Part shown: one piece after another, positions 40,636-57,570 of the stretch
Numbering within the stretch: the stretch's first letter is position 1
How the letters are laid out: every line of letters begins with the position of its first letter
Assembly (NCBI GenBank): GCA_004154925.1
Contig: QJNS01000190.1
Location: 92,660 to 156,659, forward strand
From: Monosporascus cannonballus
Taxonomy: Eukaryota; Ascomycota; Sordariomycetes; Xylariales
DNA length: 64,000 nt
Reading direction: 5' to 3'
Notes under the pieces: generated by a model
What the model was told of the DNA's origin: nothing
The model's input: only the letters and a program-made list of their open reading frames with translations
Databases searched by the model: none
Made by a program: the position numbers and the translations under genes

Positions 40636-41044
40636 ATGGTAAAGTTATTGTTACCCTATTTCTCGCTGCTTGCTGGTAACAATGTCGACGTCGCTCATGC
40701 GGTGGTAGCTCCTATTCGTCGAGATGGCTCTATACCGGCGTTGCCGGCCGATCCTAATACTACCAAGTATTATACCTGGTGGATTGACTTGGACACAGCC
40801 ATGCCTTGCTTTACTTTCTTGACAGACAACTTTATCACCCTGGCAGACTTTCGAAGATGGAACCCGTTTATTACAGAGGACTGCAGGAACCTGGAAGTTG
40901 GGCATTCGTACTGCGTCGAGGCTATGTCCGAGCCGCCTCCTGCAACCATAACAACCTCAACATCGTTGCCAACCTCCACCACAACTACGATAACAGTAGG
41001 GTTTGCACTACCCACCCACCCACGCTAAAATTTTCACCCACGAG

Positions 41045-41098
41045 TACCCACGCACCCCTGCTAACCACCCGTGGGTGGTTAGCAGGGGTGCGTGGGTA
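41045..41098. repeat. Perfect 26-bp-arm inverted repeat (hairpin) near the left hAT end
   Basis: Arms at 41045-41070 and 41073-41098, with a 2-nt GT spacer, are exact reverse complements (left arm begins TACCCACGCACCCC). It lies in the subterminal ACCCACGG-rich zone and may serve transposase binding. Confidence 0.95.
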
Positions 41099-41312
41099 AA
41101 ATGAAATTACCCACGGACTAACCACCCGTAGGTACCCAAAATACAAAATGGTTAACCACCCGTGGGTACCTATTTATAACCAAGTATTTATTAGATTAAT
41201 ATTATTAAATTAAACTTTATAAAGATGAAAACCTTATATAATATGAGACTGTGATTTATTAAGTACTTTTTTAAGTACTGATACCTAAGCCAAGAACGCC
41301 TAACGTAATGCC

Positions 41313-41371
41313 GTACTAATCCGAGTACTAATCACCCCGTATGCAAAGCCGTATTAATCCGAGTACTAATC
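41313..41371. repeat. 12-bp-period GTACTAATC repeat cluster, left end of hAT
   Basis: Units begin at 41313, 41325, 41351 (GTATTAATC) and 41363; spacing within each pair is 12 bp. The mirror cluster at the other end of the element is at 56068-56103 in the opposite orientation. Other clusters with the same period are at 41812-41832, 42293-42337, 45128-45184, 46659-46682, 47318-47341, 55198-55221 and 55629-55652. Confidence 0.9.
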
Positions 41372-41462
41372 CTTTATTTGTTCCTTTCTCTGTTCCTTTG
41401 TCTGTTCCTGCGGCGGATTAGATATGTCTGAATCGCTGGAATTTTTTAAGATAGGTACGTTT

Positions 41463-42370
41463 TTATATTCTTTTTCCGGGAATCGATTTATTTCTTGCTT
41501 CTGTTGGCGAGCCTGCTGGCGGCGGACTGCCCTTTTTTTTTTGCTGAGCAAGATATAGCATGTCTTGTTGTGCTCGGGCTTTTTCCAACCGTTCTTGATA
41601 TGTTCGGTTTCGGGCTTTTTGTTGTTTGGTTTTTCGGGCTTGACGTTTTTCCGCAGTTTCATGTATTGCCTGGGCGGAAATGCCGTATCCCGGCAAACCT
41701 ATAGGACCCACAGACGCCATCATGCCCGTCACATGGTAGACTAGCTTTATATCTTTAACCATTAACGTGACGCGTTTGCTATGGATATAATACAAGTTGG
41801 CGGCTATAAACGATTAGTACGTGGATTAGTACGCATATTGCTAACGTGGACATACCAGTGAAAAGGGTAGTAAAAGCAGCTTCGCTTGCTTTTTGTAAAG
41901 CTTTTATAGCTGACCGCTGGAATCGCAAATTTATTCCGCCAGGTAAACCTTGAGTGATTTCGCGTATAAGACGTTGAAATGGGGCCTTAGGTATTATAAG
42001 ACTGGTATCTTTCTGATACCTGCGGATTTTTCGAAGTGCAACGGCTTAAGCGAAAAAAGAACAAAATTAGTTAAAAAAAAAAGAGGAAGGAAAAAGAAAA
42101 CTAATAAGGCCTGATGTACTTACTACCGGGCTTCCATCGTTTGGGCTTTTTGATCTTGCCGGTTGTCTCCGTAGGGGTTTTTTTTGGCTTTCGGTTTAGC
42201 TGTGCCCTTGCTTTTAGCCGTACCTTTGCCTTGGGGTGGGTATTTGCCTCCGACGCCTTTAGCCTGCGATTGTACGTGCTGATTTGAATTAAGATTAGTA
42301 TATTGATTAATACGTAAATTAATACGTTAATTAGTACAAGTATTAACTTATTAGTTTTTATGCGGGCCAT
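41463..42370 (-). CDS. Histone H3 variant, CENP-A-like loop 1, intact four-exon gene carried by the hAT
   Basis: Exons on the minus strand: 42370-42348, 42278-42124, 42044-41856 and 41803-41463, giving 235 codons. Introns are 69, 79 and 52 bp; the last two have GTAAGT/AAG and GTATGT/TAG ends, while the first (GTTAAT...CAG) is less certain. The start M-A-R-I-K-T resembles H3 M-A-R-T-K. A Lys-rich tail leads to G-K-I-K-K-P-K-R-W-K-P-G-T, then V-A-L-R-K-I-R-R-Y-Q (residues 61-70), K-A-P-F-Q-R-L-I-R-E-I, L-R-F-Q-R-S-A-I-K-A-L-Q and I-H-S-K-R-V-T-L-M-V-K-D-I, covering alphaN to alpha3 of the histone fold. Loop 1 (E-I-T-Q-G-L-P-G-G-I-N-L-R-F-Q) is two residues longer than in canonical H3, as in CENP-A. 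After the fold comes an unusual Gln/Lys-rich tail of about 87 residues. No RIP stops are present. Whether it enters nucleosomes is inference. Confidence 0.9.
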
Positions 42371-43050
42371 AACCAAAAAATTACTTGTCGTATGCAGAAA
42401 ATAATATTAAAATCGAAATTAATTAATTGAAATTAATCGGAAGGTGCAATTATACCAAAATGCAATTGCGCAAAAAATTTGCAGTATATTATATATGGAA
42501 TAGGCAAAACGAAAAAAAATTATTACGATATCTTAGGTAACTTATTTTTGAGTTTACTTTTTAGAAAATATTGTTGATGCGAAATTTCATATACGTATAT
42601 AACAAAAAATATATAATAAAAAATATTTGAATTAAAAAATTTTTAAAAGTGAAAGATAAATAAAAATAAAGTATTTAATAATATATAAATTAATTAATAA
42701 TACGCTTATTTTTTGTTGGTATAAGTTTCCGAACTGGTTATGATAATTTTTTAAAATTATAAGCCTTTTTTTTCGTATCTTTGCCGATCCAGTTATAACG
42801 TTTTCAGTTTTTGTTTGCCTTTTGGCATTTAAGTTAGTTAAGGGTGGCGATAATTCAGATTCCTGCCGTACGGTAATCTTATCGTAAATTTGTTGCCTTA
42901 GTAAGAAATTAATTGTATTCGGAGCTGTTCCGTTATCGACTTAAGGTATAGCAGTTTGAAAAACGGGTTAGGAATTGTTAATTTCGCCGGTAATGAAAAT
43001 AGGATAGATAACGCTTAAACCCCATTTTTTCGAAAATTTCGTATAAAAGG
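42371..43050. other. AT-rich spacer between H3-A and the transposase
   Basis: Very AT-rich to about 42720 with no recognisable frame. 42720-43050 contains degraded minus-strand sequence that may be the transposase 3' end or untranslated region. No independent gene is recognised. Confidence 0.4.
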
Positions 43051-46050
43051 CCTTTTCGATTTTTTTTTACCGACGTTTTATAATTCGGGTAAGTTCGTTA
43101 TTTTCGGTATAGTTGTACTAAATATTAGGTAACGGATTTTTTAACTTATTTCGCAGATGGGATATAATAAAAAGGTTAATTTGGAATATAAAATGCGTTA
43201 ATTCGGAACGGTTATACGAATAAATTAACCTAGCTTAGTTTTACGTTTGTTCCATTAATATGGCAACGGCCTGCATATAAAAATAATTACGGGCGAATAC
43301 GGCCAGCTCAGGGAAAAATATTTTTATATTATGCCAAAATATAAAAACATTTTAGTTAAAGGGTAAATTTAGATATTAATTAATGTATTAATTTCCGTAT
43401 CGAGAATTTATATAACTTACGTATTTCCAGGTAATAATTAACAATTTATTCCTAAGGCCGACCGTTATAAGAAATTAATAGGTTCGAAAAGATGCGTTAT
43501 TAAAAATTAATAAGGGTATTATTGGGAATAAAATAAAAATAAAATGGTACGAAAAAATAAATACCTTTTAAAGGATTTTAACGTTATCGGTTATAATTTC
43601 CGATAAATTTCGATTAATACGTTATTTGCAGGATAATTTTGTTATGTTATTTTCATATTTTTCGTAATAAGATTTATAAATACTTTTAAAATAACGAATT
43701 ACTTTATTGTAAGAAAACTTATTTATAAATAATTAATCCAAAAATATCTTTTACCTATCGAAATAAAATTCTGTTTTCGAATCTAATAAAAAATACAAAA
43801 ATATTGCGAAAATAAAATGGTACTTATTATTTTTAAAAATTTTGTTAATATAACGTTAATAAAATTTAAAATAATTTTAAACGGTTTAAAGCAATCTTTT
43901 AAAATAAAGTTACAATATACTAACAGAAATTCGATTTTGTATATGAATTTTGCATTTGCGAAAATGCTTTTTTATGGTTTTAAACCTTATAAGAACATAA
44001 TTATAATTCGTTTTTTTCAAAGCGTCAAAAAGGGTTATTAATAAAAAGACGGCTTGTAAATATCGATCAAATAATTAATAATATTTTAGATAGTTTTCGA
44101 AATTTTAAAACTAATTATTTTTTCGCGATATATGTAATTCTCGATTATAAGTCTTAATCGACGAACTCGAACAAATATGTATATTACGGAATTCCAATAA
44201 ATCCTTACGTTTTAAATAACTTATAATGGTTTTTCGATATTTAAAATACCTTTTTTTAAAAGCAGTTTATATGCGCGTAAACCGCTGCTAACGTTTAATA
44301 TTAAAATTAAAATATATTACGAATTATTTAATTTAAATTAGCTAAAAAATTAATACTAAAATTAATATAATATTATTAACGGGATAATAAAGGTTAACGT
44401 ACCTTTATTACGATACGATCGGCCGTATCGAACTTAATTTGTTTAATTTTGATTATTTTTTTTCGTTTTTTTCCATTTTTAGGCCCGTTTAATCTTTTAT
44501 TTTTACGTTATCTGTAATTTTTAACCCTTTAAAAAGCCGTTTGTAAATATTTTGCAAGGAATATAAGAAATAATAAAAATAATTTGCCCTATTTATTTAT
44601 ATTTATTTTTATTTATTTTTTCTTATATATTTCCTAAAATGCTTTATGCCGAAATTCGTTTCGTTATCCGCTATAATAACTTAAACTTTTATATGGAATC
44701 CGTACTTTTTTAACGCCTCGTATAATACTTAAGTATTTAATTTTCCTTTTTTATTTTCGCATAATTAAATATTAATCAAAATATATTTAAATATCCAGTT
44801 TTTGTCGATAAAATAAATATATATATCTTGGAAAAACCATACTAGGCCAAGGGAAATCCAAACGTTAGTAATTACCGAAACGTAAAATTCGGGAGGGATA
44901 TTTTTTAATTTTAACCGTACTGTTTTTTCCGCGTATTTTTCGCATTTGTCCTTAAATGTACGAAATTTCGGAAAACTATAAATAAAGTATATATGCCGGA
45001 CTTAATTAATAAAATGCGGATTTTCGACAAAATAAAAAAATAGGTATAAACTGGCCCATATTTTAACCATAAAACAATTATTTTCGGATAAAATTTCGAT
45101 AACGTAAAGCAGATATTATTAAATAATAATTAATACAATAATTAATATAATAATTAATACGATAATTAATATAATAATTAACGTATATTAAAAAATTCTA
45201 TTTATCATAAAATTTGTAATAATATACCTTTCCTTATATTAAGCTAATCTTTTTTTTTACATAATTTATTATTTATATAATGTTTTAATAAAATAATACC
45301 ATAATTATTTTTATTCGATTTCGGATATATCCGGGTTTTATAATAAAATTCACAGATTACTATTAACTAACCTATTACTAAAATTACGCCATAAAACTAA
45401 CTCTGCCAATATTAAAACCTTTAATTAAAAACGAAAATTTTTTGAAAAAATATCTCGTTTATATTATAATCGAAAGTAACTTTTTTTTAAAATTACTGCC
45501 GCCGCATAAATTACGCCTTAAACATTTCGGCGTTTTCCGATTTATAAATATAATATATTAAAACGTTAAATCGTAAAAATGGTTCGAATATTTTTTATAC
45601 ATTATCTCGGGACCATAAGCTAAGCCCTAATTAAATTAAGGATTTAACTTCTTTAACGTATTTATTACTTAATTCGTTATCGCCCGATTTGTCAAAATCT
45701 TTTTCGCCTTTATAACTGGATTCGTTCCCTAATTCCTGGTTATTTCTTTTTTCGCAGTCCGTCTCGTCGAACACGTAATTATCTCCTAATTCGTCCCCTT
45801 CCTTAACATTAGGTTACTTCCCAAATTCAGGTTCTCCTTTATTTTTACTTTCGCTTTTATCCTTATCGTATAAGGTATCACTTAATTCTCGCAATTAACT
45901 TTCCATTTCGATAACATCTTTAATAAGGCCTAACCTATAAATTTTTTCGTCGGTTATAACCTAATTAAAAAGATTAATAAAAAACGGTAATATATTATAA
46001 TATCAAATTCGAATAATGCTTTAATTATATTACAAATTATATTATTAAAC
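43050..46050 (-). pseudogene. hAT transposase, RIP-degraded
   Basis: Minus strand, limits approximate. An acidic N-terminal region lies at 45900-45640, followed by F-E-P-F-L-R-F-N-V-L-I-Y-Y near 45560. The catalytic RNase H-like core shows V-I-T-N-V-W-I-S-L-G (about 44895-44865), Y-F-I-D-K-N-W-I-F-K (about 44810-44780) and V-I-I-A-D-N-E-T-N-F-G (about 44680-44650), matching the hAT D-x-W-T-S, H-F-I-D-x-x-W and T-D-N-A-x-N-N blocks. The C-terminal dimerisation block is F-P-E-L-A-V-F-A-R-N-Y-F at about 43318-43280. Gln and Trp codons are changed to stops throughout, so the element is no longer autonomous. Confidence 0.85.
45128..45184. repeat. 12-bp-period AATTAATAC repeat cluster inside hAT
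   Basis: Five units begin at 45128, 45140, 45152, 45164 and 45176. They are RIP-altered versions of GATTAGTACnnn. Confidence 0.9.
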
Positions 46051-46499
46051 GTAACTATATACGATCGGCATTTTGAAAACGGAAAATTAATACATTAAAA
46101 ATACAAAATTAATACGGGCGGAAACTTAAAAATAAAATTAAAACAAAATATATACGTTAAATATTATAAGCGGATTATTTATTATCCGAATTATTTATTT
46201 AACGCTTATTTCATTACACATTTTCTGGATAAATTTTAAAAATTTATTATATTTTTTTTCCAACTTTTTTAAACCTTATATAACCGGAATACCTTACTTA
46301 ATAAATGAAATTATACCTTTATTACGTCGCGTATTAGGTAATATTATAAAGGAAACCTTAATTAAACGTAGTAATATACGGTTTAATTATTTTACAAATT
46401 TATCCCATATTTTTATTATTATTATTATTATTATAACTATTAGCAATAATAATCCTACTCCTAAAAACGAAACTTTTATCCCGGGAATTCGAATAACAA

Positions 46500-47002
46500 A
46501 AACAACTAAATCATCCCGATAACAACCGCCGACTACTTTTACTAAGCAAAAGCAAATCCCGAAACTAAGTATTTGCGGTCGCCAGATACAAAAAAAAAAA
46601 ACTAAAACACAAATTCGATATCATTATTTTAAACCAGAAAGTAAATTACAGATTCCAAAATTAATACGTTAATTAATACGATTCTAATTTTAAAAAGCTA
46701 TGGCGTTACGCAAAATTAAGCGGTTTCAGAAATCGTACACCCCGTTAATTTTACAATATCTCTTTAAGCTTATAATTCGGAAAATCCTATTCAATACGCA
46801 ACCGAGGAACGATTTTAAGATTTAGCGATCCGCGCTAAAGGTATTACAAGAAGCGGCGGAAAACATATTAATTACGTTATTTACTAACAATAACTTATGT
46901 ACAATTTATACGAAAAAAATTATTATTCACTTAAAGGATTTCCGTTTAATTAAACAGATTTGTAAGCAAATAAATTTAGGCCTTTTTTTTAATATTGCAT
47001 AA
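46500..47002 (+). pseudogene. Second histone H3-like gene (H3-B) of the hAT, with one premature stop
   Basis: Plus strand. A Lys/Thr/Gln-rich tail ends R-Y-H-Y-F-K-P-E at 46640, where an intron (46641-46697, GTAAAT...AAG) splits a Thr codon A|CT. The second exon (46698-47002) reads M-A-L-R-K-I-K-R-F-Q-K-S, then L-F-K-L-I-I-R-K-I, R-S-A-L-K-V-L-Q-E-A-A-E-N, L-F-T-N-N-N-L-C-T-I and H-L-K-D-F-R-L-I-K-Q-I, covering the H3 fold. Loop 1 is again two residues longer than canonical H3. One TAG sits where H3 has the Gln of L-R-F-Q. Intron position and phase are identical to intron 2 of H3-A, so the two are paralogues. The 5' end is not resolved. Confidence 0.82.
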
Positions 47003-47626
47003 TAAGGATTTAGTATTTTTTTAAAAAAAAGTTTACCCGAAATTTAGCCGGGGTTTTTTTAATAGGTTAATTATATATATACTTATTTAATTTCTTCTCG
47101 ATTTATCCACCTAATATTAAATTTTTACTTTGGTATATCTTTATCAAATAATAAGATATTTACTTTTTTTTTATATCTTTAATCGTATTAATAATGCGAT
47201 ATTAATTTTAATACTTATAATTAATTTAGGGTAAAAGATATATTAAATAAAAAATTGCTTTTTTACGCCGCAATTGCCGATTAAAAGTATAAATATACCT
47301 TATTCCTAATATAATACGTATTAATTTCCGTACTAATCGATATTTTGTTATATTTAACATAATTTCGATTTCCAAAGAAAACGGTAATAAACTTTCTTAT
47401 AAACGTCGTAAACCCGACAATGCGCTTTCAAGTAATAAGAATACTGTAAAAGCGCAAAAACGTAACAAAAAACTTTTTCGCGAAAATCCTAACAAAAAGG
47501 CCGTAAAAAATGCCTAGCAAATATTGCGAACCAAAATCCGCCGCAATAAAGCGGCTTGGGATAAAAAACATCCCGAACCGAATCCTATTATCCAAAATAA
47601 AGCCTACCGAAATATTGTTGATACCG

Positions 47627-48000
47627 TGTTACGACCCGACAAGCTCCGGTTTCAAGAAACGGTCAGGCAGGAGCACACGGGCCACCTCCCGGGTCACGTG
47701 ACGATAATCACTGCCAAGCCAGTGATCATCAGTGATCAAAGGTGATCCCAAGTGATCGTGATCACCACCAACGGCGTAATTACGAATAATTATGCCAAGA
47801 AGAAAAAAAATATATACGTTTATTAAATTCATAATTTAGATAACTTCAGCTTGCAATATAATATCGTTACCCAAGATACCTTTGGCATTACGAAACGTAA
47901 TATGTTACTATATTTATTATTTAGATTCTTATGATATTTCTGTTAATATAAATTCGTTAACTTAAGGTTTAATAATTAGTTAAATTATTTAGCCGTTATA
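47627..48000 (+). repeat. 5' LTR of Gypsy E
   Basis: The first 140 bp are clean and hold GTGATC repeats (about 47720-47765). The last 190 bp are RIP-mutated and match the LTRs of F and C. Confidence 0.93.
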
Positions 48001-51000
48001 CGTTATAAATTTTATTTATTAATACCGTTAAACTTTAAGCAATATTTAATATTGTTAAAATATTAATTAGTACATAGGAAACCTTTATTTAGCAGCTTTA
48101 GGTTCGAATTCGGAAATTAAAAAAAAATTCGACAACTTAGGGCTACATTATTTGTCTAATTTTTTTCGCCCGCATAAAGCTAAAAAAAATTAGAACTTTA
48201 CGATAGGAAAAGTAACCCTTAAACCTTTTTGATTTAGGTACAAATTTATTTTCGTTTCTTAAATCTTAATAATTTAGCGGATATGGTCCTAATAATAGGA
48301 ATATACTTAATAGGAAATACGATTAATTAATTTAAACTTATTATAAGAAATTTTTGGAAAATAAGAAAAATAAATAAGGAGGACTTTATTAATAAGATCT
48401 TTTTAACTTATACCAATTTCGAAAACAAAATACGCGATAATTTCGGCAATCCGGATAAAAACGATTAATAACTTAATAATTTTTATAATTCCAACAAAAA
48501 AAAACTTACGTCCAAATACGCCGTAACCTTCAAAAGTTTTGCCGTTAAGACGGAATAAAGAAATAACGAAATTAACGCCTTTATTAACATATTTTATAAA
48601 AAGTTAAAAAATAATATAAAAAATAAAATTATTCGGATCGAATAATTAAATTGCCTTGAACCGGAATATTATAAAGGTAATTAAAATTAATAATTAATAA
48701 TTTAAAAAACGACAGGAAAAAAAAAGATAATATATTTTATATTCAGGATATAATAAGTTTAACGAAGGGAAAAAACGAAACGCATTTTTTATTTTTTATA
48801 GAACGGCATTAGGATTTATGGAATTCGGCGTTACCTACAGATAAGATTGGAGCCAAATTAAATGCTTTAATAATGGTAAAATGGATATAAGGTTTACAAA
48901 TATAAAAAGCTCAAAAAACTACGGTAAAATAACTAAACCTTTATACTAAAGAAATAAGTTAAAAATAATTAAGGAAACGATAATAAAGCCATTAACATAA
49001 TTTAAGCCAAATATATAACAAGTTTACGACAAAAGATTTAACAAGGATTATTACGATAAAAAATTTAACGAAGGATGCAAAAAACTAAAAAAACTGGCTT
49101 AATAAATATCGCAAACATAATAAAAAACGTTATAAAGATAATTACGCAAATATTAGAATTAAACAAAAGAAATCTGTCTCAAAACCCTTAATCGATATAG
49201 CAAAATATATGCCATATATTATCGACGACAAGAATACCCCCATTACAAAAAATGGAAATAATATATCCATATACGAATTACCCGTATATATTACGAAAAA
49301 TTCGATTTTCCAAATTATACCGGGTATAATAAAAATAACGAGCAATAATATTAATAATTTCGAATTATAACCCCAGGAAATATTTAATAATTGGCCGAAA
49401 TAAAACGTTAACTTAAAAAAAATAATACCTGTAAGAAAACCCTTTATGTTATTATAAATAATAAAATTACCAAACGGAAAAAAAGTTAATCTAATAAACG
49501 GTTAAAAAGTATTATTAAAAAGTAATTACGGACCTTTATTTTTAATTGGTATTTATTATAAATCCTTAAAAAAAGCTTTTAAGGAAAAAATACGTTAATT
49601 TATAAAAGATTTTTAAAACGATAATTAAAATAACATATAATAAAATATAATCGTAAATATAAGAAAATAATTTACTTAATAAAAAAAAGAATTATAGCAA
49701 AACTAGGAATTATTAATACGGCTCGAAGGAATAATTTACCGGTAATAACGACAGATATAGTAACTTAACGTATTAAACGAAAAAATATAAATAAGGTTCG
49801 ATAAATTCGAATAAAAATTAAAAAAAAGGTTATTTATAAAAAAGCTGCAAAATAACGAAACCTAAAGGAATTAAAGAGAATTCCTAAAAAAGGCTTTAAA
49901 CGCGACGATAAAAAATATTAACAACCTTATTCCTTTGGATATACGAATCGGAACATATTGGTATACCGTAATAGTAAATTACGAAGCTCTGGGCGGAAAT
50001 TATATTATACCAAATAAGGTTAATAAGTTTAAACTATTATAGAAATATAAATTAAAACCTGATATAACGACAAATGCCGAAAATTAGGAATTTGTTTACG
50101 ATAACAGAAAAATTATACGCAAAATTAATTACTTCGAGATTTTTATTAAAGAATAATACCAAACGGTTAATTTCGATATCTTTTTATTCGGGAATTACGA
50201 TATAATTTTAGGATTATTATGGATACGTTAATACGGAATTTTGATTAACGGCAAAATTAACTAAATAAGGTTTATTTTATATTTTATTAATTAATAAAAA
50301 AAATTAAAATTTTAATATTTAATCGATAATAATAACAAATATAGTTATAAAAATACAATAAATACTTTATTACTTAAAAAAATAAAATATAAAAAAAAGA
50401 ACATTAAAGAAAAATATAACGTATCGTTATTATTATTAAAGCGAAATTGAAATAATTGAATAACGATTTAAAATAAGAAAAATAACAGCCTAAAATTTAA
50501 AAAATGTAATTAATATATTATTATAATATTATAAATACGAATAGTTTTTTAGGAAAAAATTCGATACGAAATTATTAAAATATAATAAATAAAATTATAA
50601 AATAATTTTTAAAAAAGGATTTTCGACAAAGTTTTACCTTATTTATAATTTTAACGGAAATAAGTTACGTACTTTCAAAAAATACCTGGAAAATCGGTTA
50701 TAAAAAGGATAAATTCCATTTTCGAAATTACTAGCAAAATATCTAATATTTTTCGTCTTTAAAAAAACCGGAAAATTACAACTTATGGTTAATTATCGAC
50801 AATTAAATAATGTTATTATTAAAAATCAAATATTATTATTCTTAATTACGGAAATAAAAAACCGATTTTATAAAACCAAATAATTTATAATATTCGATTT
50901 TAAAAATGGATATAACCTTATTAAAATTAAAAAGAATACAAATAAAAAAATATTTATTAAAACGAAATATAAATTATTTAAATATTTGGTTATATTAATA

Positions 51001-53994
51001 AAACTTACGAACGTATTAGCAACTCTTTAGCGGATAATAAATTATGTATTACGAAAAAACCTCGATAATTTCGTCGTTTATTATCTCGACGATATTTTTA
51101 TTTTTTCGGAAATAGAAGAAATATACGCAAAATACGTTTATAAAATTTTTCAAATTTAATAGGACGCAAAATTACTTATTAACGCAAAAAAAAATCAATT
51201 TCATGTATAGGAAATAAAATATTTGGGATATATTATTACCCCAGAATATATTAGGATAAACCTTAAAAAATTGCTATAATTACAAAATAGCAAACGTTAA
51301 CGATAATTAAGAAAATATAGGTATTTTTTAAATTCGCCAATTATTACAGGAAATTTATTCGAAATTTTAGCAAAATAATTATACCCTTAACATATTTTAC
51401 GAAAACAAAATTTAAATAAACGCCAAATACGGAAAAAATATATTAAGATATTAACGATATAATTATTAATAAATTAATACTAATTATATACGATTTAAAC
51501 CGCCCCGTTAAGCTAAAAACCGATATTTCGGATTACGCGTTAAACGCAATAATCGGATAATAAAATAATTAAGGCAAATTATACCTTATTATATTTTTTT
51601 CGTACAAATTAAAAGGACCCGAATTTAATTACGGTATTCCAGATAAGGAATTTATAGCCATTATTATAGTATTTCGAGAATTTAAGCATTTTTTAAAAGG
51701 GAATTTGTACTAAATTAAAATTTATACGGATTATTAAAATCTTACTCAATTTATTGTAATTAAGGAATTTATAAAATAATAATTTCGTTATGCGGAAAAA
51801 TTAACGAATTTTAACTTTGTTATTATTCATAAAAAACATTTAGAAAACGGCAAAGCAAATGCCCTAAATAAGCGATTAAACCTTAAAGAAAAATTTATTA
51901 AAATTAATTATATAATTTTTTATATTATTATAAAAAATATTTACGCTTACGACAAATTACAATAATTCAGGTAATACCTAATAATATGCATTAAAATATT
52001 TAATAATACAATAATAATTTCCCAAAAAATTAAAAAACAAATAAGATATAAGTTTTAAAAAAATATCAAAAAATTTAACACGAAAAATATACAAACATTA
52101 ATTTTATAAATATCCAGGGATCCATAAAACCCTAAAACGACTTTAATATACGTATTTTTTTTCAAAAAAAAATTAATAATATAAAAAGTTATACGGCAAT
52201 ATAATATTTACGCCAAAATAAAAACTCGACGACATAAGCTATACGAAAAATTACGGTTATTATTAATCGTAAAGCGACCATAATATTTAATTATATTTAA
52301 CTTTATTATCAAACTTCCTATATTAAAAAATTTAATTACAGAAATATTTTATAATAACATTTTTATAATCGTTAACCGATTTACGAAATTTTTTATTTTT
52401 TATCATATTATAAAAATATAAACGCTAAAAAAATAATATATATTTTTTTAAATATATTTTTAACATATACGGATTATTAATAGAAATTATATTAAATAAA
52501 GAATTAATATTTATATTAAAATTTTGGCAAAGCTTAATAATACAAATCGGCCTAAATCATAAATTATTTAGCGCATTTAAACCTTAGACGGATAAATAAA
52601 TAAAGCAAATAAATTAAATTTTGAAAACTTATTTACGATGTTATATTAATTACGAATAAAATAATTAAGTTAAGAAATTATTAATTATATAATTAATTTA
52701 TAATACTAATTATTACGAAAATATCAAAATAATACCTGCGAATACAAATTTTAATTTTACTCCAGAAATTTATGAAAAAAATATACGATAACGGTCTAAT
52801 TAATATCAAAATAATCCTTACGTCGGAATAATTATAATAGCTATATTAGGAAATAAAAATAAAATTGGAATTTGTACGAAATTAAATAAGTAAGTATTAT
52901 AATTAGAAAAAATTAAAAAAATTAATTTTCGAAAAAAGGGAGATAATTTTTCTTATTACACAAAATATTTAAACAAAACAACTTAGCAAAAAGCTTGATA
53001 TTAAATATATCAATTTATACAAAATCGCCAAGAAAATCTCAGAAAATAATTATTAATTAGAATTTCCACCAAATGTTAAACTTTATTTAATTTTTTACGT
53101 TTCTTTATTCGAATTAATAGCAAATACGATTAAAGTATATACGGTATAAAACAATATAGAAATAATAGACGAATAAATATACGAAATAAAAAAAATTTTT
53201 AATATACGAAAATAAAACGGATTTATTTAGTATTTGATTAAATAGAAAAAATACCTAAATTTCGAAAATATCTGGGAATCTGTTAAGAACTTTATTAACG
53301 CCCAGCGCTTATTAAAAAAATTTTACCAATAACGACGGACGCGTCCTAATTAATAATTAACCAGTTAATAACCGGGATATCGGGTTAATCGATTATAACT
53401 TGCGTTAACGTAATAACCGTAATTACGACCTTTAATTATTTTTGTTTCCGACATTTTTGTTTTTTTAGCTTATTTAATAATTAAAGCCTATATTATATTA
53501 TAATAACGTCCTTTAAACAAATTAACGTTTTTTGTTTATGCAAACAAATAAAATAATTTTTTTTTATTTATTTCCTCCTAATATTTGCATTAAGGTTTGA
53601 AATAATGCCGCTAAAGCTTTAATAATTACTTTTCGGCAAACGTTTTTCCGTTTTCTTAATGTTAATATTTACGATAAATATTTTATAAAAAAAATATATT
53701 AATATTATTATAAAATTAATCCCGATTAACATATTCCTTATATCTTAAAACGTTTTCCATTATTTTATACCTTATGTTTTTTAAGAAATAATAAAAATAA
53801 GTCATAACTTCGTAACCAAATTCGTTAAAGGCTTTTACGAAGTTAATATGATAAACGGTAAAAAAAACGAAAAATATAACGAATTTTAAAAATGCGAAAC
53901 GATATAATTAAAAGCAAAAAAAAGGGATATTTACCAAACGAAAAAAAAGAAGAAAAGAAATCTTAAGGACAAAATTTAAAAAGAAAGGAAATCG
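48001..53994 (+). pseudogene. gag-pol remnant of Gypsy E
   Basis: Plus strand. Gag spans about 48.1-49.9 kb. The protease lies about 49970-50260 (G-G-N-Y-I-I-P-N-K, then N-F-D-I-F-L-F-G-N-Y-D-I-I-L-G-L-L-W-I-R). Reverse transcriptase runs about 50720-51350 (L-Q-L-M-V-N-Y-R-Q-L-N-N-V-I-I-K-N, V-V-Y-Y-L-D-D-I-F-I-F-S near 51085 with the catalytic Asp pair kept). Integrase lies about 52330-52640 (I-I-V-N-R-F-T-K-F-F-I-F-Y). Many TAA codons stand at ancestral Gln positions. Confidence 0.85.
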
Positions 53995-54364
53995 TATTAC
54001 GACCCGATAAGTTCCAGTTTTAAGAAACGGTTAGGCAGGAGCATACGGGCCATCTTCCGGGTTACGTAACGGTAGTTACTGCCAAGCCAATAATTATTAA
54101 TGATTAAAGGTGATCCCAAGTAATCGTAATTACCACTAACGGCATAATTACGAATAATTAAGCCAAAAAAAGGATATATATGCTTATTAAATCTATAATT
54201 TAAATAGTTTCAGCTTGCAATATAACATCGTTACCCAAGGCACCTTTAGCATTACGAGACGTAATACGTTACTATATCTATTGCTCAGATTCCCACGATA
54301 CTCCTGCCAACATAAACCCGTCGACTTAAGGTTTAATAGTTGGTTAAACCGCCTAGCCGTCACA
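53995..54364 (+). repeat. 3' LTR of Gypsy E
   Basis: The first half is RIP-altered (TATTACGACCCGATAAGTTCC) and the second half nearly clean (CTCCTGCCAACATAAACCCG, GCCGTCACA), the reverse of its partner. Confidence 0.93.
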
Positions 54365-55022
54365 TACCGCCAATAATTTATTGTAAGTTTTGCTTTTTGC
54401 AACGTATTAATTTCTATATTAATCGCTCTTAGTCGTTCGCAGAATAAATATCTTAAATAATTTACAATTTAATATAATATCGACTTTAAATTACGTTCTA
54501 ATACCGCGAAAACGGTTACAGGCGATTCGAACTGGTTGTTTTGTGAACTCCCTGGTTTAAACAATAATTTTCCATGGGCGTCCGTTAACAGAGAATGGGA
54601 ATTTGTTCCCGAAGACGAACTATCGGAAAACGAATAAATCGCTCTGTTATAATAGGATAACGCAGCCCGCCGTTATCTTTATTTCCAGAAGTTCGGAAAC
54701 AAATTGACGTTGGTAATTAACGATGCGGTATATGCTATGGCCGAAAAATTTCCCAAGCTATTGGTGCTTATTTCGGATAAATTCAACGTTATACTGTCAA
54801 ATGTTGAAAAGGTATTTTTTTAAAAAAAAAATTTTATTAATTTTTTTACTTTATCCTTTACTTTATTATATATTAATCAATATTTTTTAAATGCTTAGTT
54901 ATAAACTTAAGCTTAACCTACATTCCGATTCGGCACCCCTACATACGAAATATTTTGCCCGAATAATTATTAACGTAATCGTGGAACTTGCCGGACGGAA
55001 AGCGCTTTCGTTAAAGCATAAG

Positions 55023-55152
55023 TGTTATGGCTGCACTATGCCATTACGCCACCAGGGCAAAAGATCAGTGGAATGATCGCAATTGTGGCAATCATCCTGG
55101 TGCTTACAGCTGCATATATACTGGAGCTCTTACGGTGGACCAAGCCGTAACA
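55023..55152 (+). mobile_element. 130-bp solo LTR (mini-LTR family), copy 2
   Basis: It starts TGTTATGG and ends CCGTAACA, with a perfect 5-bp duplication ATAAG at 55018-55022 and 55153-55157. It is nearly identical to the reverse complement of 14514-14643 and shows almost no RIP. It lies within an exon of the unknown hAT gene. Confidence 0.93.
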
Positions 55153-56067
55153 ATAAGAATCATAATATTTTCGCTAAATAACGGCAGACGGTAAGCTAAT
55201 TAGTACGCGGATTAATACGTATATTCGTTGCTAACTTAATTTTATAATACCAGCTGTATTATGCCTATATCTATTAGGTCAAATTTCTCCAAAAGCCCTT
55301 ACAGACCTTATATTATAAGGCCTAACAAAGCTCTTACCATTCCCGCAATAAGAACTTGATATCCGAAATTAAGCTAGGCATCCTTAATTTTATTCGCAGC
55401 GAAAGGATAAATAACGTTTGGGCTATCCCTATTTTTTATTATTTTTGTAATTCTGCTGATATTCGCCTTTGGCTGGCGGATGACGAAAAGGAGCTCCTGG
55501 CTAATCTTATTAAACTCCAACCTTCCGATATTATAGCCTGGAAGAAGTTGTTTCCGCGGGTGGCGGACAAATTCAAATTACGCTCCGGTCCTCCAAGCTC
55601 CGGTAAGCTAATTACCTATTTTATTGGCGTACTAATCTTCGTACTAATCCATTTTTTCCGCCTTAGTTCGAAACACAAATTTCGTCGCTTCAATTACTTC
55701 CCAAAAGTACTTTCGTACTTTCAGCCTACGGTTACCGGAATATTAAGAGAAGTAATTTCCTTCGGTTACAATGCCCGCAAGCTTCGTAAGTCCTGGTCGC
55801 CTTGTCTTCCCGGCCCGGCTTGGCTCTGGAATGATGCGGCAACGCGATAGCTCGAAGGAGCCGCTTTTCGTTCGGCTCCTAGGCGAAAAGTGAAGTTGGC
55901 GGTAGCACTAATGTGCATCCCGAAGGTCTTTCCGATTGCCCCCAATGCCTTCGTAAATAACTTTCTCCCAAGCGTACATTCGCTTAACTCACAGAACATA
56001 ATGGATTAAGTAGTTTGGCCACATTGGGAAATTCGCAACCAATTTTGCTTGGTTCATAAGGCAGGGC

Positions 56068-56103
56068 GATTAGTACGCAGATTAGTACGCAGATTAGTAC
56101 GCG
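56068..56103. repeat. 12-bp GATTAGTACGCA repeat, three copies, right end of hAT
   Basis: Copies start at 56068, 56080 and 56092. They are in inverted orientation relative to the GTACTAATC cluster at 41313-41371 near the left end. Confidence 0.93.
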
Positions 56104-56346
56104 TTTAATAACAATCTTGCGTTTAAAATAAATAAGATTCTTAATTCGCTATGTTCTAACGCTATTATGATTTTTACCCAATGGGTACCCGTGGGTGGTT
56201 AGCTCGTGGGTGGGTAGTCGTGGGTATTTTTGGAAAAATGCCAAGACTACCCACGGTTACCCACCCACGGTCGTGGGTAGTCCGTGGGTACCCAATGGGT
56301 ACCCATTGCAAACCCTAGATAACAGCGCTACCATCAACTACCAAAC

Positions 56347-56552
56347 TGTCAGGTGCCAAGGTGCGACCCCCTTTCCGGGGCCCAGCGCCCCACCAGTGTG
56401 GCTCCAGTTTGTGTATATATAGGGGGGCTTCGCCCCCGAGTAGTTAGAAGAGGGCAGGCATTAATGGTCATCTATTTACTATCCATACTATGAACTACCT
56501 GCTAGGCTGCTTCTTCTGCCTTTCACTCCGTGCTTTACCATTTTCCCTGACA
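56347..56552 (+). mobile_element. Solo LTR of the Gypsy H family in the LysM gene
   Basis: It is 206 bp, starts TGTCAGG and ends CCTGACA, with a perfect duplication CAAAC at 56342-56346 and 56553-56557. It is practically free of RIP and therefore the best copy of this LTR here. It includes TATATATA followed by the GGGGGC-TTC-GCCCCC stem-loop. Confidence 0.96.
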
Positions 56553-57570
56553 CAAACCCCCTAATGGGATTAAAACGCCAACCCCTACGCAGGCGGTTAT
56601 TGACGACAATTGTGATAAATTCCACTTCGTCAAGGCTGGTAAGACATGTAACACAATCGCAAAGGCCAACGGCATCACTCAAGCCCAATTCCTGGCGTAG
56701 AACCCTTCGGCCGGCAAGCAGTGCGATGGGCTCTGGGCTAATGCATACGCTTGTGTTTCTGTTATCGGCCACGAACCTACTCCCACCGACCCAGGCAACG
56801 GCGTTAAGACACCCTAGCCAATCCAGAATGGTATGGTCGGCAACTGCAACACCTTTTACTTCGTCAAAAAGGGCCAGACGTGCCAAGTAATTGCCGGACT
56901 ATACTCGATTAACATTTCGCAGTTCACCACCTGGAACCCGGCAGTGGGAAAGGATTGTAGTGGTCTTTGGTCGCATATGTACGCTTGCGTCGGCCTTATC
57001 GGTAGCACCAAGCCACCTTTACCAACCTCCACCAAAACGAACAACGGCATCTCGACGCCTACTCCCACTCAGCCAGGCATGGTGAACAACTGTGACAAAT
57101 TCTACTTCGTCAATTCAGGGGATACGTGCGCGTCGATCGTATCCAAGTCCGGGATTTCTATGTCCCAGTTCGTCCAATGGAACCCCAGCGTTGGCAAAGA
57201 TTGCAGTGGGCTGTGGGCAAAAGTGGTATGTATCCATGTCCTAACTTGCCCCATACTCCTGGATCCAGTTTGGTTTTTCAAACGGGCGGTTAGTGGTTAA
57301 CCTGGTCCCTAATACACCTGCATTTCCATCACTGGGCACACGCCGACACCAACAAATCCAGGCAACGGGATTAAGACCCTTACCCCTATCCAAGACGGCA
57401 TAACCCGCAACTGCAAAACTTTCCATCTTGTCAAAAAGGGAGATACGTACGTTAGCATCGCAGCCAAGTACAAAATATCCGTACCACAGGTTATTAAGTG
57501 GAACCCGGCGGTGAGGACGTCTTGTACATCACTTTAGTTCGATACTTACGCTTATGTGGCAGTTCTATGA

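Follow-up and report, generated by a model that had tools for sequence, protein, structure and literature searches.

Histone genes in fungal hAT elements

Among the literature matches listed, hAT elements with histone H3 cargo appear in only two papers, whose descriptions serve as our reference. The element of Pyrenophora tritici-repentis (Ptr), published in 2013, is described as combining TIRs and a transposase with an ORF to which no function is assigned and with an H3-like gene distinct from both H3 and CenH3, as occurring in many copies, and as having ESTs for its H3-like gene (PMC3538342). In 2019, hAT elements with H3-like genes were published from Pseudocercospora, Cercospora and Sphaerulina; by that account the P. 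fijiensis element is about 9.5 kb long, with an 8-bp TSD, one or two H3-like sequences, strong RIP and a hAT dimerisation domain that is difficult to detect (PMC6710886). H3 cargo in hAT elements is thus already known, and the statement of an earlier, sequence-only reading of this locus that no such hAT had been described is contradicted by both papers. The main text of the paper on Monosporascus genomes (PMC7407469) contains none of the strings "histone", "hat" or "transpos".

The window studied here is a stretch of 64,000 nucleotides of Monosporascus cannonballus DNA, part of contig C118 in a searched genome of 88.8 Mb. It holds a hAT-type element that resembles the published ones, as their descriptions set the comparison, in having an H3-like gene between TIRs and many copies. 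Compared by description, the Ptr element is 5.6 kb long with one H3L gene and nearly identical copies (PMC3538342), whereas the Monosporascus element is about 8.6-8.7 kb long, carries two different H3L genes and is heavily marked by RIP. All P. fijiensis copies are reported to have been inactivated by RIP, to lack introns and to stem from a transcript of host H3 (PMC6710886, again compared by description), in contrast to the Monosporascus family with its open spliced copy, introns unlike those of host H3 and signal of selection. That copy and that signal are new, as are the fixed layout, in which two histone genes are accompanied by a third gene, and the occurrence in a fungus of another class. 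We lean towards reading the window element as a decayed copy of a hAT whose histone pair has been under selection and serves the element through H3-variant nucleosomes, the nucleosome step being one that we infer.

Architecture of the element in the window

The element occupies window positions 40997-56317 (Table 1). The perfect 11-bp TIRs and the 8-bp duplication that the sequence-only reading had placed around its histone gene were both located, as in a hAT element; a second H3-like gene, the transposase remnant, ORF D and a nested LTR retrotransposon had escaped that reading. The two LTRs of the retrotransposon, which is inserted inside exon 1 of ORF D, are 82.5% alike, and subtraction of this insertion and one copy of its TSD leaves a hAT of 8578 bp. 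A search of Rfam at gathering score over window positions 40900-56500 gave zero matches.

Table 1. Features of the hAT-type element in the window
Feature	Position	Strand	Basis
Left TSD, 8 bp, GATAACAG	40989..40996	.	sequence read
Left TIR TAGGGTTTGCA, 11 bp, perfect	40997..41007	+	
H3L-1 gene remnant, fold open	41463..42370	-	PF00125, alignment to C90
H3L-1 exons	42352-42370; about 42124-42283; 41856-42044; 41803 downwards	-	
hAT transposase gene remnant, RIP-mutated	42686..45990 (limits approximate)	-	blastn against C90
H3L-2 remnant, second H3-like histone, stops present	46292..46996	+	PF00125 and protein match
ORF D first exon, interrupted by LTR retrotransposon	47386..47628	+	
Nested LTR retrotransposon, RIP-mutated, foreign to the hAT	47627..54364	.	
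TSD of nested LTR retrotransposon, TACCG	47622-47626 and 54365-54369		
ORF D later exons, stops present	54425..56006	+	
Right TIR, 11 bp, perfect	56307..56317	-	
Right TSD, 8 bp, GATAACAG	56318..56325	.	sequence read

The central part of the element is very rich in AT, with a GC content of 0.24 in the transposase, 0.28 in H3L-2 and 0.23 in the LTR element, and the arms are less so (0.39-0.44); the left gene, H3L-1, appeared intact because it lies in an arm less AT-rich than the RIP-hit middle. The left arm is about 80% and the right arm 89.5% identical to the reference copy described below. Recombination between copies, faster evolution or a chimeric assembly may each account for this gap, which we count against our preferred explanation, as recombination or chimeric assembly may be at work.

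LysM repeats (PF01476, E 3.8e-11) lie at window positions 56818-57297, near the right TSD. Since they adjoin the insertion, the hAT probably interrupts a LysM gene; the frame on the left flank of the insertion gave zero Pfam matches.

A nearly un-RIPped reference copy

A nearly un-RIPped copy of 8727 bp was found on contig C90 (442188-450914), with perfect TIRs and no TSD. Spliced models gave H3L-1 as 265 aa in 4 exons, H3L-2 as 237 aa in 2 exons and ORF D as 506 aa in 5 exons, and all three are open once spliced. PF00125 matches the two histones with E 1.8e-34 (H3L-1) and 1.6e-24 (H3L-2). Outside the fold, H3L-1 carries a charged C-tail more than 100 residues long, and H3L-2 has an unrelated extension at its N-terminus of about 130 residues.

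The transposase of this copy, between the two histone genes, is interrupted by three in-frame stops and by breaks of the frame at runs of A, according to our reading of all three frames, so that even the best of the copies seen is non-autonomous. No Pfam hAT domain was detected in its whole read-through, and in its pieces PF05699 (Dimer_Tnp_hAT) scored 15.5 bits, under the cut-off of 21.4; in the sister copy on contig C132 the same domain scored 26.6 bits, over the cut-off, between that copy's H3L-1 and H3L-2, at the place that corresponds to the transposase remnant of the window. The window copy itself has been mutated too heavily by RIP for the domain to be judged. A PDB search with the transposase gave zero matches up to E 1.

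ORF D gave zero matches in Pfam up to E 0.1 and in NCBIfam up to E 1 (mg162 protein used). Its homologues, among the best 8000 candidates scored, are two, both from Monosporascus. DL766_010524 of Monosporascus sp. MC13-8B agrees letter for letter with a sister-copy ORF D (residues 1-203 and 204-416), and the relative in Monosporascus sp. mg162 is 93% identical. MC13-8B bears the name M. cannonballus in PMC7407469. A cytochrome P450 gene (PF00067; contig C90, L010 5353-5631) adjoins the C90 copy, and DL766_010524 fuses ORF D to that gene, through either mis-annotation or real read-through.

The H3L-1 gene of the window copy

The sequence-only reading had described an intact four-exon gene on the minus strand with a full histone fold and good splice sites, the first donor being less good. 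The four-exon frame is open over 235 residues and the fold stands (PF00125, 60.6 bits, E 1.1e-14). Comparison with the C90 copy rules out an intact gene: the splice sites of intron 1 are gone and both tails contain frameshifts. In C90 intron 1 starts with GTAAGT and ends with AG; at the aligned window positions the donor reads AT (42350-42351) and the acceptor AA (42284-42285), each through a G-to-A change, and the open frame proposed earlier needs a GT 4 bases and an AG 5 bases further on. The window also differs from C90 by two insertions, a single base at about 42178 in the N-tail and four bases at 41527-41530 towards the C-tail end. As a result, the earlier frame departs from that of C90 over roughly codons 7-42 of the N-tail and in the last part of the C-tail. 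Sequence resembling the C-terminus of the C90 protein is present in another window frame, down to about 41370. To judge from these differences, the window copy was damaged later, by RIP, LTR insertion, splice-site loss and frameshifts.

The introns of the element genes are packed with GTACTAAT repeats that resemble tandem branch-point motifs (C90; window 42285-42351).

A family with a common gene set

The family has a defined gene set: H3L-1 and the hAT transposase pointing leftward, H3L-2 and ORF D rightward, between TAGGGTTTGCA ends. Searches of the genome returned 115 matches for H3L-1, 95 for H3L-2 and 121 for ORF D, and 43 H3L-1 loci were picked by hand from the 115. A family TIR lies on the expected side within 2.5 kb at 24 of the 43, against 0.12 expected by chance, a count that drew on 100 of the 160 TIR sites. 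H3L-2 is placed divergently within 30 kb at 28 of the 43 loci and ORF D lies within 40 kb at 26; TIR, H3L-2 and ORF D occur together at 10. Seen from the other histone, ORF D lies directly downstream of H3L-2 at 26 of 44 H3L-2 loci. The further copies with family termini that the sequence-only reading had proposed to look for are thus present at many loci in a repeated layout; its claim that an H3-family gene lies inside a hAT element as more than a one-off event is borne out by the 43-locus survey, and the repeated association of TIR and layout over dozens of loci rules out a single chance capture.

Only the C90 copy, among the 43 loci, combines open exons with a match over most of the H3L-1 protein. 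Among the matches listed, the more diverged subfamilies on contigs C489, C511 and C13 keep the divergent H3-like pair, and the C90 transposase matches weakly within these stretches. For subfamily B a right end was seen that starts with TAGGGT and carries GGGTACCC repeats, and no TIR/TSD pair was found there. The TIR pattern TAGGGTTTGCACTACCC occurs at 160 sites in the genome (82 forward, 78 reverse), compared with 6 for the reversed control. As TIR sites far outnumber H3L loci, the family probably has short non-autonomous relatives.

Contig C165 holds a fragment of canonical H3 (L024 5110-5569; 85% and 76% identical to host H3 on C110, with the intron read through) that abuts, head to head, a 169-bp stretch with 96% identity to the promoter and first exon of H3L-1. 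The junction might reflect a recent capture or have arisen by chance.

Histone identity of the H3L proteins

Both H3L proteins have the PF00125 fold with H3 as the nearest histone, and in PDB both score highest against ordinary H3 chains. Within the fold, H3L-1 and H3L-2 share 53% identity; against host H3 the value is 56% for H3L-1 and 50% for H3L-2. The two genes share an intron at KPG|T that is absent from host H3 (C110) and host CenH3 (C5), and they lack the intron that both host genes have before REI/RDI. Among the protein-database relatives listed (120 of 3375 and 120 of 6271 matches), none was named Monosporascus, in searches swamped by other H3 proteins and with many listed rows bearing no name. 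Two short, divergent Leotiomycete H3-like proteins, from Stromatinia cepivora (P0135) and Bisporella sp. (P0153), show H3L-like IPK-PF and KDM-LV features.

The sequence-only reading had called the histone CENP-A-like on the strength of a loop 1 two residues longer than in H3. The extension is seen in our alignment, and it occurs there also in Tribonema H3 and the environmental H3 P0129, so a longer loop 1 is not diagnostic of CenH3. At the start of helix 2, where host CenH3 and S. pombe Cnp1 have the CenH3 Trp (RWQ) in the same alignment, H3L-1 has RFQ and H3L-2 RIQ. At the 35 columns that differ between host H3 and host CenH3, H3L-1 agrees with H3 in 11 and CenH3 in 7, and H3L-2 with H3 in 7 and CenH3 in 10. 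The tree with H3 and CENP-A that had been proposed as a check was built from 20 rows, with 11 of 17 inner branches open. Grouping with CenH3 gave p-AU values of 0.347 for both H3L proteins together, 0.397 for H3L-1 and 0.088 for H3L-2; a clade of H3L-1 and host H3 gave 0.0465, the only value below 0.05 among eight AU tests. As far as these alignments go, the tree favours neither a CenH3 nor a host-H3 origin. The H3-family fold stood, and "CENP-A-like" was an over-read: CENP-A identity finds no support in the diagnostic columns, the tree or the eight AU tests.

That the H3L proteins are of CenH3 type, acting at centromeres or biasing centromere identity, is in our view very improbable. The longer loop, the diagnostic columns of H3L-2 and the unrejected grouping of H3L-1 with CenH3 would fit such a role; the missing Trp, the columns of H3L-1, the PDB scores (host CenH3 scores highest against Cnp1), the low p-AU of H3L-2 with CenH3 and the position of the window insertion, beside a LysM gene and not in a known centromere, speak against it. 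As has been done for the H3L of Ptr, we describe them as divergent H3-family histones.

Selection on the cargo genes

Over 91 codons of the H3L-1 fold, the C90 and window copies differ with dN 0.11 and dS 0.48-0.59, a dN/dS of about 0.2. The 47 substitutions alter 18 residues and introduce no stop codon, while 5000 random placements of the same changes altered a mean of 30.5 residues and a minimum of 21. With RIP-type changes removed, 25 substitutions change 7 residues, compared with 16.4 expected, and no placement was as low. In the first part of the H3L-1 C-tail 30 of 58 codons are changed, against 39.1 expected (0 of 3000 placements as low), in a protein-guided alignment that itself favours likeness.

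For the other exons the picture is mixed. With all changes counted, the three ORF D exons gave P 0.05, 0.15 and 0.09. Fifteen exon tests were made on non-RIP-type changes, seven for window versus C90 and eight for C570 versus C90. In the window pair, values fell below 0.05 in only two of the seven, H3L-2 exon 2 (5 changes against 9.6 expected, P 0.005) and ORF D exon 2 (6 against 12.8, P 0.0003); the other five gave 0.08 (H3L-1 exon 3 alone), 0.09, 0.20, 0.59 and 1.0 (H3L-2 exon 1). Between C570 and C90, where the C570 changes are mostly of RIP type, no constraint was seen in the eight tests (P 0.22-0.95). The substitution pattern shows purifying selection on the H3L-1 fold along the branch between the C90 and window copies, as estimated from this one copy pair; by the same measure constraint is seen on one family branch, with none seen towards C570.

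These results bear on passive transduplication, in which a hAT accidentally picked up an H3 gene or transcript of its host and carries it as a functionless passenger, the reading published for P. fijiensis in the account cited (PMC6710886). Nearly all Monosporascus copies are broken: a PF00125 search of the genome gave 48 matches, 35 of them with stops and host histones among the remainder. Together with the lack of constraint in C570 and the canonical H3 fragment directly beside the H3L-1 promoter on contig C165, this speaks for accidental capture. We hold that explanation to be unlikely, as it has to contend with the purifying selection seen in the H3L-1 fold, with a layout that retains two different H3-like genes, with intron places unlike those of host H3, and with the AU test, one of eight, that just rejects a clade of H3L-1 with host H3. 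In Monosporascus (Xylariales), the H3L histones have the look of genes that the element has maintained for a long time, and not of passengers.

Proposed role of the H3L histones

In the nucleosome role that we favour, H3L-1 and H3L-2 would each form a pair with H4 of the host and take the place of H3 in the nucleosomes of element DNA. Their tails, which differ from the H3 tail and have no ARKS motif, may let the element use H3L to keep its own DNA, or the substrate DNA of its transposase, open against heterochromatin. In normal H3 the ARKS motif carries K9 and K27, and it is absent from both C90 H3L proteins. The positions of K4 and K36 hold R in C90 and K in the window copy, so the loss of these two sites is not stable; among the tail changes, only the absence of ARKS counts as a stable point in the predicted proteins. 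In fungi, H3K9 methylation marks RIP-mutated DNA.

The long foreign tails could also point to H3L proteins turned transposition factors, H3-fold dimers that bind the transposase or the element ends and form no part of nucleosomes. The charged C-tail of H3L-1, partly constrained in its first part, and the unrelated N-tail of H3L-2 would suit such factors. The H3 fold is preserved from end to end, the IH-KRVT-KD region included, which presumably suits histone-histone contacts, and we hold this explanation to be improbable.

Other parasitic DNA offers parallels to the nucleosome role. Fungal DNA transposons that carry TET/JBP genes, hAT elements among them, are described as bearing an epigenetic gene proposed to help them escape silencing; their cargo is a DNA demethylation enzyme, not a histone (PMC12730594), and by analogy they would be a parallel strategy to H3L cargo. 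Among single histones encoded by viruses, the bracovirus H4 is likewise described as a histone with an altered tail, encoded by parasitic DNA and thought to enter host nucleosomes, but it is viral, an H4, and active in an insect host (PMC9145170).

A broader proposal, which we regard as quite doubtful taken as a whole, is that an old Ascomycota hAT lineage encodes a selected H3-type pair that, with host H4, would form element-specific nucleosomes whose tails lack the usual K9/K27 context, giving chromatin that resists heterochromatin and RIP, the Dothideomycete "transduplications" being RIP-wrecked members of that lineage and not separate captures of host H3. If this were true, the published H3-hAT cases would no longer count as chance acquisitions of a housekeeping gene but as examples of a common strategy, and natural H3 variants with foreign tails would have been gained for chromatin work. 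If the H3L pair is functional, a transposon would be supplying its own nucleosome parts, and the rewriting of local chromatin would become directly testable.
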